Source: Pontiellaceae bacterium B12227 (GTDB lineage: Bacteria > Verrucomicrobiota > Kiritimatiellia > Kiritimatiellales > Pontiellaceae). Taken from it: 64,000 nt of DNA. Numbering within the stretch: the first letter of the stretch is position 1; every line of letters begins with the position of its first letter. The DNA lies in contig JAROAZ010000007.1 of the NCBI GenBank assembly GCA_029432775.1, forward strand, positions 169,137 to 233,136. Direction: 5' to 3'. Below are positions 2,471 to 63,969 of this stretch, piece after piece. The position numbers and the translations under genes are program-made. The notes under the pieces are model-generated. The model was not told the origin of the DNA. It made no database searches and saw nothing but the letters and a program-made list of their open reading frames with translations.

Positions 2471-2501
2471 AAATGGATTTCCAATGATTGGAAATCCATT
2501 T
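2471..2501. repeat. Perfect 14+3+14 inverted repeat downstream of thiC
   Basis: Arms 2471-2484 and 2488-2501 are perfect complements around a 3-base loop. The core (2479-2493) is an exact copy of the dispersed TTCCARNNNYTGGAA palindrome. It lies about 35 bases past the thiC stop in the 243-base gap before the PAS gene. It can fold as a transcript-end hairpin on either strand but lacks a good U-run, so it is a weak candidate for an intrinsic terminator. Nothing else was recognised in the gap. Confidence 0.75.
2479..2493. repeat. Dispersed 15-bp palindrome TTCCARNNNYTGGAA (first of at least 23 exact copies)
   Basis: Exact copies found by reading start at 2479, 4266, 7153, 9827, 12835, 12914, 15106, 15159, 16792, 17858, 23020, 25381, 31397, 35308, 37109, 37215, 42361, 45366, 45525, 49363, 53582, 63881 and 63944. 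One-mismatch or one-insertion relatives start at 15423, 19428, 24167, 30298, 40219, 60494 and 63913. In every exact copy base 6 is a purine and base 10 a pyrimidine; the three central bases vary. Most copies are inside genes, where they read as SNxWK, FQxLE or PxxG depending on frame. Several occur as close pairs. This entry stands for the whole family. Confidence 0.9.
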
Positions 2502-2535
2502 CGCTGCAAACATCGTCAATCTATAAATAAGGCTG

Positions 2536-4146
2536 TTACGACTTCCGGATCTCTTCCGAGATGCGCATGGAGCAATAGCGCTCGCCGCACATGGAGCAGT
2601 AGTGCTGATCAACCTGATCCCGCTCTTCGGGCGGCATCGAATCGAGGCGATACTGCTTGGCCAGCAGCGGGTTAAAGGCGAGGTTGAATTGGTCCACCCA
2701 GCGAAATTCGCCGCGGGCTTTCCGCATGGCGATATCGCGATCCATTGCGCCGGGAATCCCTTTGGCAAGGTCGGCTGAGTGCGCCGCAATTTTATGAACA
2801 ATCACCCCTTCCTTGACATCTTCACGGTTCGGCAGGCCAAGGTGTTCTTTCGGCGTCACATAGCAGAGCATCGCCGTGCCGAACCAACCAATCACGGAAC
2901 CACCGATGGCGGAGGTGATGTGATCGTAGCCAACACCACAATCAGTAACCAGTGGGCCAAGCGTATAGAACGGCGCTTCGAAGCAATCTTCGAGCTGCTT
3001 ATCCATGTTGACTTTAATCTTATCGAGCGGCACATGGCCCGGCCCTTCGATCATGACCTGACAACCATATTCCCACGCAATCTTTGTCAGCTCGCCGAGG
3101 GTTTTAAGTTCCGAAAGCTGTGCTTCGTCGTTCGCATCTTCAATACAGCCGGGGCGCATGCCGTCGCCAAGCGAAAAGGTAATGTCATAGGCACGCATGA
3201 TTTCGCAGATTTCGCGGAAGTGCGTGTAAAGAAAGTTTTCCTGATCGTTATCAATCATCCATTTAGCCAGCACTGATCCGCCGCGGCTGACAATACCGAG
3301 CTTGCGCTCCTTCGCGAGCGGGATGTCTTTTCGCAGCACCCCGGCATGAATCGTGAAATAGTCGATACCCTGCTCGGCCTGCTCGATCAATGTGTCGCGG
3401 TAGAGCTCCCAGCTAAGACCGTCGGCATCGTCGTCAATTTTCTTCAGTGCCTGATAGAGCGGAACGGTGCCGATCGGCGTCGGCGAGTTGCGCACAATCC
3501 ACTCGCGCGTATCGTGAATGTCCGCACCGGTGGAAAGGTCCATCACCGTGTCCGCACCCCAGAGGGTGGCCCACTGCATTTTTTCGACTTCTTCTTCTAT
3601 GGAAGAACCCAGAGCCGAGTTACCGATATTAGCGTTGATCTTGGTGCGGAAGTTCCGACCGATAATCATCGGTTCGGCTTCCGGATGGTTAATGTTCAGC
3701 GGAATCACGGCGCGGCCGGCGGCGACTTCGGAGCGGACAAATTCAGGTTCCACCATTTCGCGGATGGCAACATATTCCATTTCAGGCGTGATGACCCCGT
3801 TTTGAGCGTAACTCATCTGGGTAACGGACTGCCCTTTTTTTGCGCGCAGCGGCTGGCGTTCCAACCCTTTGAAAGCCTTTTCGGTATTACTCAGAATATC
3901 AACGCCGGAAACATGCTCTTCCACATCGCCACGCTCCGAGATCCAGGTTGAACGAATCGAGGGCAGGCCCTGTTTCAGGTCCGGCTCGTAGGAGGGATCG
4001 GTGTACGGACCACTGACGTCGTAGACATTCAGATCTTCATTATCGCCATGCAGTTTAATTTTACGGAACGGAACACGGATGTCCTCACGTGAACCTTTAA
4101 CGTATGTTTTTTCAGATCTTGGGAAGTATTTGCCGTATCCACTCAT
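2536..4146 (-). CDS. thiC: Phosphomethylpyrimidine synthase ThiC
   Basis: ThiC is the radical-SAM enzyme that rearranges aminoimidazole ribotide into HMP phosphate, the pyrimidine half of thiamine. The 536-aa product carries the ThiC core, including NANIGNS, GADTVMDLSTG and EGPGHVPLDKI. The C-terminal [4Fe-4S] cluster motif CX2CX4C is at Cys517, Cys520 and Cys525. It is roughly 100 residues shorter than enterobacterial ThiC, mostly at the N-terminus, as in the short form found in many bacteria. A TPP riboswitch lies in its leader, so expression should fall when thiamine pyrophosphate is plentiful. No other thiamine gene is adjacent. YjbQ, about 6 kb away, is sometimes linked to thiamine phosphate but is in a separate unit. 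Confidence 0.98.
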   Translation of the reverse strand: MSGYGKYFPRSEKTYVKGSREDIRVPFRKIKLHGDNEDLNVYDVSGPYTDPSYEPDLKQGLPSIRSTWISERGDVEEHVSGVDILSNTEKAFKGLERQPLRAKKGQSVTQMSYAQNGVITPEMEYVAIREMVEPEFVRSEVAAGRAVIPLNINHPEAEPMIIGRNFRTKINANIGNSALGSSIEEEVEKMQWATLWGADTVMDLSTGADIHDTREWIVRNSPTPIGTVPLYQALKKIDDDADGLSWELYRDTLIEQAEQGIDYFTIHAGVLRKDIPLAKERKLGIVSRGGSVLAKWMIDNDQENFLYTHFREICEIMRAYDITFSLGDGMRPGCIEDANDEAQLSELKTLGELTKIAWEYGCQVMIEGPGHVPLDKIKVNMDKQLEDCFEAPFYTLGPLVTDCGVGYDHITSAIGGSVIGWFGTAMLCYVTPKEHLGLPNREDVKEGVIVHKIAAHSADLAKGIPGAMDRDIAMRKARGEFRWVDQFNLAFNPLLAKQYRLDSMPPEERDQVDQHYCSMCGERYCSMRISEEIRKS

Positions 4147-4196
4147 TTTTCAGTTTTCCGTTATTAGTTATCAGCTCATGGGAAATGCCGAGGAGG

Positions 4197-63727: not shown

Positions 63728-63824
63728 TTATCTTTCCCCCTGTTGGATTGACTTACCTAAACCGGGAAGGCCCAGGCCTTTCCCACACATATAAGAGAGA
63801 ATACCACAATTTAAAAACATGTCA

Positions 63825-63844
63825 TGTGGCGCAATCGCGCCACA
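63825..63844. repeat. Perfect GTGGCGC hairpin
   Basis: TGTGGCGC (63825-63832) and GCGCCACA (63837-63844) with a 4-base loop, in the gap between the repeat protein gene and the partial gene at the right edge. The rest of the gap (63728-63969) holds two exact copies of the dispersed palindrome (63881, 63944) and a CCGTTTTTT run that may belong to a terminator. Confidence 0.7.
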
Positions 63845-63969
63845 CGGAGCATAACTGCGGCAGCCTTCCTCCAGCGGTTTTTCCAAGGGTTGGAAAATGA
63901 AACGGTGAAAACTTCCAATACCTGGGAAAACGGGTTCCGTTTTTTCCAGGCATTGGAACTGCCGGTCTA

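Follow-up and report, generated by a model that had tools for sequence, protein, structure and literature searches.

A 15-bp palindrome, TTCCARNNNYTGGAA, occurs in 24 exact copies between positions 2479 and 63958 of a 64,000-nucleotide (64-kb) stretch of DNA from Pontiellaceae bacterium B12227 (class Kiritimatiellia; contig JAROAZ010000007.1, positions 169,137 to 233,136), the whole of which we call the window. The mean of 100 dinucleotide shuffles was 0.04 copies. We believe that the palindrome is probably a double-stranded binding site for a predicted homodimeric protein of the helix-turn-helix (HTH) type, which would mainly organise the chromosome as a nucleoid-associated protein rather than regulate a few operons. 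It resembles a highly iterated palindrome combined with an array of cooperatively bound sites. An initial annotation, made by a model from the letters alone, had counted 23 copies, one too few; the scatter that it reported and the huge excess over chance both held. We met no description of the word in the literature searched, which was covered mostly at abstract level and with few subscription journals, and a keyword search of two Pontiella papers returned no such element.

The palindrome in the window and its genome

When any five middle bases were allowed (TTCCAN5TGGAA), the window held 25 copies. The additional copy, TTCCAATGTATGGAA at 13844..13858 (a site also found in the relative G021), broke the rule, proposed in the initial annotation and otherwise upheld, that base 6 is A or G and base 10 T or C. 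The half-sites TTCCA and TGGAA were paired 25 times in the window at a gap of 5 bp, and 0–1 times at each gap of 0–4 and 6–15 bp. The source genome (6.29 Mb, 206 contigs) contained 2106 copies, or ~1 copy per 3 kb, whereas the reversed control pattern was present 3 times. Within 705 kb of that sequence, the ten fixed bases stood at gap 5 in 255 places, and at any other single gap from 0 to 30 in 0–6. The genome-wide count against background, a check named in the initial annotation, therefore places the palindrome well beyond the contig.

The middle three bases had been described as variable, which proved incomplete, as the central base 8 was C or G in 239 of the 255 copies in the 705 kb and in 517 of 527 copies from loci that hold arrays of the word. 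The orientation of the centre base showed nothing past what GC skew could produce. In a symmetrised matrix of the flanks of 135 copies, T/A was preferred directly outside the word, with nothing past ~2 bp. Because of the C/G centre and the T/A flank preference, the refined motif is written (t)TTCCARN-S-NYTGGAA(a).

Several one-mismatch forms with a gap of 5 were also in excess: 1T>A was observed 49 times (3.5 expected), 5A>G 61 times (6.5), 1T>C 20 times (2.8) and 2T>C 13 times (2.4). Others were depleted or absent, with 2T>A at 0 (1.5 expected) and 4C>A at 2 (4.1). Position 2 thus tolerated only T to C, position 3 tolerated mismatches slightly and position 4 almost not at all. Such a gradation of near-cognates appears to suit a protein that binds above some threshold, rather than an enzyme with an all-or-none target.

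Helical phasing, distribution and conservation

We examined the phasing of neighbouring copies relative to the DNA helix in a test set of the source genome, three genomes of its own order (G030, G031 and G032) and six from other families that had been retrieved for unrelated purposes. This set omits loci found by their spacing, G048, which was fetched after arrays had been seen, and relatives within the genus, which partly hold the same pairs by descent. Among its 37 pairs at distances of 130 bp or less, 23 lay within 1 bp of a multiple of 10.5 bp (24% by chance; R 0.53, Rayleigh p 2.6e-5). Removal of the pairs at 31 and 32 bp left 29 pairs with R 0.43 (p 0.005). All 11 test-set pairs outside the source genome fitted 10.5-bp multiples, and within the source genome 37 pairs up to 220 bp gave R 0.41 (p 0.002). 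Upon adding G048 and three genus relatives, R reached 0.69 over 76 pairs.

Other families of the class carried arrays of the word, largely between genes; successive words were 31 or 32 bp apart, and the 16- or 17-bp spacers between them differed in sequence. The order of steps was sometimes a strict 31/32 alternation (seven words in G057), more often runs of 31. In eight low-copy genomes, 330 pairs were spaced 20–50 bp apart, and among the matches listed (75, from G057 and G402) all were at 31 or 32 bp. The arrays of G057 (contigs C1, C9, C12, C41, C64 and C96) were often near contig ends, with some spacers in common by eye. A scan of species genomes for words 31 or 32 bp apart found at least 117 stretches. 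Among the matches listed, record titles were Kiritimatiellae, Kiritimatiellales, Pontiellaceae, 'Lentisphaerae', 'Verrucomicrobia' and many 'uncultured bacterium', with one bin each titled 'Spartobacteria' and 'Firmicutes'. The phased pair in the record titled Firmicutes (L135, MWAC01000309.1) is perhaps on a mis-binned contig.

Viral contigs (IMG/VR) also held pairs at 31 or 32 bp, in twelve stretches of 11 contigs, several of which have genes in common. The array lay ahead of a gene common to both related contigs L191 and L192, and in the 3' part of an open reading frame (ORF) that starts as an XRE-type regulator in L195 and L198. L202, the sole contig examined for a hallmark gene, had a terminase small subunit.

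For class-wide counts we used the exact word with S at its centre, calling a genome rich at 20 or more copies and poor at 6 or fewer. Across 345 genomes of the class, 73 had at least 20 copies, 9 had 7–19 and 263 had at most 6, with the highest count, 3121, in G429. Every genome of families f21, f11 and f23 had 6 or fewer copies and the other families were mixed; within the genus of the window, counts ranged from 0 to 2005. In G032, a single contig of 3.88 Mb, the 40 copies of one variant were spread across it. None of the 256 genomes from other classes in a phylum search of 387 genomes exceeded 9 copies. In that search the backwards control AAGGTYNSNRACCTT occurred 52 times in G108, a member of family f44 in a different class of the phylum, versus 0–4 times in the other genomes; this is possibly another high-copy 15-bp palindrome of like layout, or one repeated element. 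No other palindrome 'dialect' was seen in 15–34 kb samples of eight poor genomes. One 'dialect' match in G015 was rejected as a single local tandem repeat with a unit of ~51 bp on ATGGAGCTGGAAGCTCCAT (L242 6419-6740, G015:C51).

To assess conservation we used a single syntenic block, window positions 3001-20500. In G001, the nearest sampled relative (79% identity), all ten fixed bases were kept at eight of nine ungapped sites, and 12.6% of 15-mers were as well kept (P 5e-7). G027 kept all ten at six of nine sites (P 2.5e-5). None of six and none of five sites were kept in the palindrome-poor G018 and G004, respectively. The initial annotation had pointed to selection on a two-fold symmetric site and had named related genomes as a place to look. 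Both the genome-wide excess and the sites kept at orthologous places in palindrome-rich relatives bear it out. It had not noticed that the centre is C or G, that neighbouring copies are helically phased, that arrays occur in other families and in viral contigs, or that some relatives have the word and others lack it.

Five to seven of the ten fixed bases of the ftsY copy differed in all seven relatives, with no gap, and the protein reads FQWLE in the source genome and F.W followed by other residues in the relatives. Sites inside genes used all three reading frames equally (69/69/68), in agreement with the earlier statement that genes take up the word in different frames. The parallel that had been drawn with Rickettsia palindromic elements, which likewise place palindromes inside genes, is not supported, as relatives without a site align ungapped, with no insertion, and there is no frame preference.

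With simple longest-ORF calls, 111 of 135 sites in the source genome fell in ORFs, where 125 were expected, and were spread evenly over the length of the gene; the other 24 fell in the intergenic 7.4% of bases, a ~2.4-fold enrichment. Among 148 arrays in stretches of public genomes, 91 were intergenic and the other 57 either overlapped an ORF or were without a neighbour. The genes flanking the intergenic arrays were co-directional in 50 cases, divergent in 26 and convergent in 15, and the gene boundary closest to the array was a start in 57 and an end in 34 (background, 1835 to 1614). Just one family recurred at more than four loci around 178 arrays, a cluster of 13 joined by palindrome-coded peptides; sulfatases and ABC ATPases, with four loci each, came next.

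Proposed binding protein and alternative explanations

The predicted protein would bind TTCCARNSNYTGGAA specifically. Its 5-bp half-sites, with centres 10 bp (about one turn) apart, would take the two recognition helices of one dimer, and we read the site as that of a dimer because this distance suits two recognition helices on one face. Steps of 21, 31.5, 42 and 52.5 bp would seat further dimers on the same face. The protein would thus oligomerise in steps of ~31.4 bp, neighbouring dimers packing on one helix face, most often three turns apart, and the dimer would occupy thousands of chromosomal places. We infer from sequence that it binds, is a dimer, oligomerises and has an architectural role. 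On balance, we favour this architectural role and regard local regulation as secondary to it, because the sites lie in genes, gaps and a riboswitch alike across the whole chromosome; the lack of a widely recurrent neighbour gene near the arrays also supports it.

More tentatively, these observations may describe a helix-phased bacterial chromatin. In this picture a dimer private to part of Kiritimatiellia would nucleate on thousands of exact 15-bp palindromes and form three-turn protein rows on one face, with selection intense enough to reshape coding sequence and to fit the word into a riboswitch, and with phages having the same phased arrays. Most of the nucleoid proteins that have been studied closely recognise loose motifs, which makes a sequence code for a chromosome's own packing hard to study. 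The code here is sharp and countable, with ten fixed bases, a fixed gap and a preferred helical step, and it is present in thousands of copies in some congeneric species and lacking in others. With such a code, the proposed binder can be traced by pull-down or from the presence and absence of genes over the 345 genomes, and the cost that the code imposes on coding sequence can be studied as a natural experiment.

Several results weigh against a phased, architectural binding site. Phasing in the source genome alone was moderate, with 12 of 26 pairs within 130 bp fitting (p 0.02) and p values of 0.033, 0.002 and 0.011 at limits of 110, 220 and 420 bp. Periods of 10.0 and 11.0 bp also scored in the test set, less well (R 0.45 and 0.36), because 31 and 32 bp dominate, and since pairs within one array are not independent, all phasing p values are too small. 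Some G057 arrays seem to multiply as units, as spacers recur by eye between them. Conservation was marginal in G009 (3/10 sites kept, P 0.047), G005 (3/11, P 0.059) and G021 (2/6, P 0.061). The site at 4266, present in three of the four relatives that align there, sits in a thiamine pyrophosphate (TPP) riboswitch that is itself constrained, so seven of eight is the cleaner count for G001. Arrays lay somewhat nearer gene starts, which leaves room for gene regulation. Finally, no binder emerged among the candidates Lrp, NrdR, NrpR, Y1 transposases and a phage XRE gene, none of which tracks the palindrome.

The main rival, which we consider unlikely, is a DNA-uptake signal. A competence receptor would prefer the word, and biased uptake with recombination would spread and maintain copies, as for DNA uptake sequences (DUS) and uptake signal sequences (USS), which are clade-specific and occur in genes in hundreds to thousands of copies. 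The density of 1 copy per 3 kb, the use of all frames inside genes, the near-cognates and the clade-restricted presence and absence, with copies kept in rich relatives and lost in others, are compatible with this explanation, and the large number of copies, many of them intragenic, is shared with DUS and USS. However, the uptake words known to us are not palindromic, whereas the word here is two-fold symmetric, and its helical phasing over up to seven words and its arrays in viral contigs would not be expected of an uptake signal. Should it be one nonetheless, it would be of a palindromic kind, of which we know no example.

It seems rather doubtful that the word serves an ordinary global transcription factor, whose large regulon would have the copies as its operators and whose high activity would leave the intragenic ones as by-products. 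The intergenic enrichment and the slight preference of arrays for gene starts are in its favour. The flat distribution along genes of the 111 sites in predicted ORFs is not, nor are the conservation of intragenic copies, the 15 of 91 arrays between convergent genes and, apart from the palindrome-peptide cluster, the lack of any neighbour family in more than four array loci.

A link to a DNA methyltransferase or restriction system, with the word as its highly iterated palindrome, is improbable. A high-copy palindrome would suit such a system, and the core CCAN5TGG, which we take to be a known restriction site, is enriched in the source DNA (557 vs 216). However, this excess of 341 is approximately explained by the 255 full words and the variants at positions 1 and 2 (~85 over expectation), and an enzyme with a fixed short site would not be expected to show ten fixed bases, near-cognates in graded numbers or helical phasing. 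In G030, two palindromes 52 bp apart lie upstream of a gene identified by eye as C5-methyltransferase-like (C2:158624-163358), which fits the enzyme explanation; the gene adjoins an ATPase-domain gene and a receiver-like gene, also by eye. The cyanobacterial palindrome HIP1 (GCGATCGC), to which the initial annotation had compared the word, stands only as a loose analogy. Both are high-copy, clade-limited palindromes far above expectation genome-wide, and copies here also lie inside genes. HIP1 has 8 solid bases and cognate methyltransferases, unlike the 15 bp, variable centre and helix-phased arrays of the word. HIP1 is reported to be present at a low level in some relatives (PMC4390886).

We regard as still more improbable mobile or mosaic palindromic repeats of the repetitive extragenic palindrome (REP) and bacterial interspersed mosaic element (BIME) type, moved by Y1 transposases of the REP-associated tyrosine transposase (RAYT) kind. 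Arrays of palindromic units in gaps are common to both, Y1_Tnp is found in 69 of 80 class genomes and some G057 spacers recur between arrays. However, Y1_Tnp does not track the palindrome, being found in 33/36 rich and 36/44 poor genomes and absent from the rich G057, G101 and G191. In the source genome, where copies are mostly intragenic, they have no common flank past ~2 bp and no insertion footprint, and they align ungapped to relatives without the site. Selection in transcripts for an RNA hairpin or a terminator is highly improbable: the word can form a short stem and one copy lies in a riboswitch, yet the spacing follows the DNA helix, and the coding strand carried A..C at positions 6 and 10 in 33 sites and G..T (G..U in RNA) in 41 (p 0.42), when a hairpin would prefer the pairable G..T.

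To return to the proposed dimer, the initial annotation had suggested looking for a conserved binding protein, and none of the families examined follows the palindrome. Lrp/AsnC (PF01037) was rejected as the binder, being present in 106 of 126 class genomes, usually as one copy, with similar HTH regions in rich and poor genomes alike. All 20 class genomes without Lrp were palindrome-poor, and because of this Lrp may have a necessary but not sufficient role. The word lay within 200 bp upstream of lrp in 1 of 20 rich genomes examined. Lrp-type sites are described as (semi-)palindromic, with dimers on one helix face and centres two or three turns apart (PMC2995911). A spacing of two or three turns on one helix face is also seen for the palindromes here, an arrangement that matches Lrp/AsnC operator clusters. 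The clusters differ in that Lrp sites are degenerate with an AT-rich centre, whereas the word has thousands of exact copies and a C/G centre, and in that the Lrp conserved in the class fails to track it.

NrdR was rejected as well. It was found in 36/36 rich and 42/44 poor genomes, nearly all with one match, and rich genomes had no extra NrdR. NrdR boxes are tandem palindromes at 31–32 bp, a step like that of the arrays, and differ from the palindrome in sequence and length. NrpR, a family known from methanogens whose operators have GGAA half-sites, matched (PF01995) in 38 of 80 class genomes tested. It was set aside at 22/36 rich and 16/44 poor genomes and missing from G134 (listed as 100% complete), G112 (94%) and G028 (79%). 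Within the genus of the window it leaned toward the expected pattern (7/9 rich vs 1/6 poor). The family of the phage XRE gene beside arrays was found in 2/36 rich and 4/44 poor hosts, and this regulator is therefore not the hosts' binder. When ORFs in 960 kb (43%) of G030 were surveyed by eye and by pattern (343 ORFs of 70–330 aa), only common regulators and the NrpR lead appeared; an NrpR-like regulator was noted by eye at C2:167772-168785.

Chromosome-organising systems such as matS/MatP and Noc use short palindromes scattered on the chromosome in tens of copies, matS (GTGACRNYGTCAC) having an RNY centre. The word shares the scatter and, with matS, the RNY centre; it differs in its copy number, up to thousands, and in covering the whole chromosome.

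Copies and other features of the window

All copies below were located as exact matches and are given without strand. The gene locations in ribD, ftsY, ribH, a sulfatase gene and a GH97 gene reported by the initial annotation agree with Pfam. In ribD, TTCCAATGACTGGAA (15106..15120) and TTCCAAAGTTTGGAA (15159..15173) are 53 bp, or five helical turns, apart. ftsY holds TTCCAACCATTGGAA (16792..16806) and ribH holds TTCCAGACATTGGAA (17858..17872). In the sulfatase gene, TTCCAATCATTGGAA occurs twice (37109..37123 and 37215..37229), 106 bp apart, and the GH97 gene contains TTCCAGCCATTGGAA (42361..42375). Pfam further places TTCCAACTATTGGAA (6887..6901) and TTCCAAACTCTGGAA (7153..7167) in one esterase gene, TTCCAGCCTCTGGAA (12835..12849) and TTCCAACCGTTGGAA (12914..12928), 79 bp apart, in a short-chain dehydrogenase gene, and a second TTCCAACCATTGGAA (31397..31411) in a raffinose-synthase-family gene.

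Two more close pairs are TTCCAGACCTTGGAA (45366..45380) with TTCCAATGTCTGGAA (45525..45539), 159 bp apart, and TTCCAAGGGTTGGAA (63881..63895) with TTCCAGGCATTGGAA (63944..63958), 63 bp or six helical turns apart; all five close pairs listed in the initial annotation, at 79, 53, 106, 159 and 63 bp, are thus present. The remaining copies outside riboswitches are TTCCAATGATTGGAA (2479..2493), TTCCAACGGTTGGAA (9827..9841, a site also in G009, and again at 49363..49377), TTCCAACCACTGGAA (23020..23034), TTCCAATCTCTGGAA (25381..25395), TTCCAGCCTTTGGAA (35308..35322) and TTCCAAACATTGGAA (53583..53597).

Copies had also been claimed for riboswitches. The copy TTCCAAGGGTTGGAA at 4266..4280 lies in a TPP riboswitch match (4223-4316, minus strand) upstream of thiC, a gene named by eye; the match scored 53.9 bits, just under the Rfam gathering score of 54.3. 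The flavin mononucleotide (FMN) riboswitch at 19369-19497 (Rfam) contains none of the 24 exact copies and holds the one-mismatch near-cognate TTCCAAACCTTGGAG (19428..19442), to which an exact copy is aligned in G001. Rfam also placed an Acido-Lenti-1 RNA at 44628-44672 (minus strand). Two short intergenic, palindrome-free segments, 18034-18093 and 16076-16157, matched many places in relatives at ~76–100% identity and are dispersed repeats.

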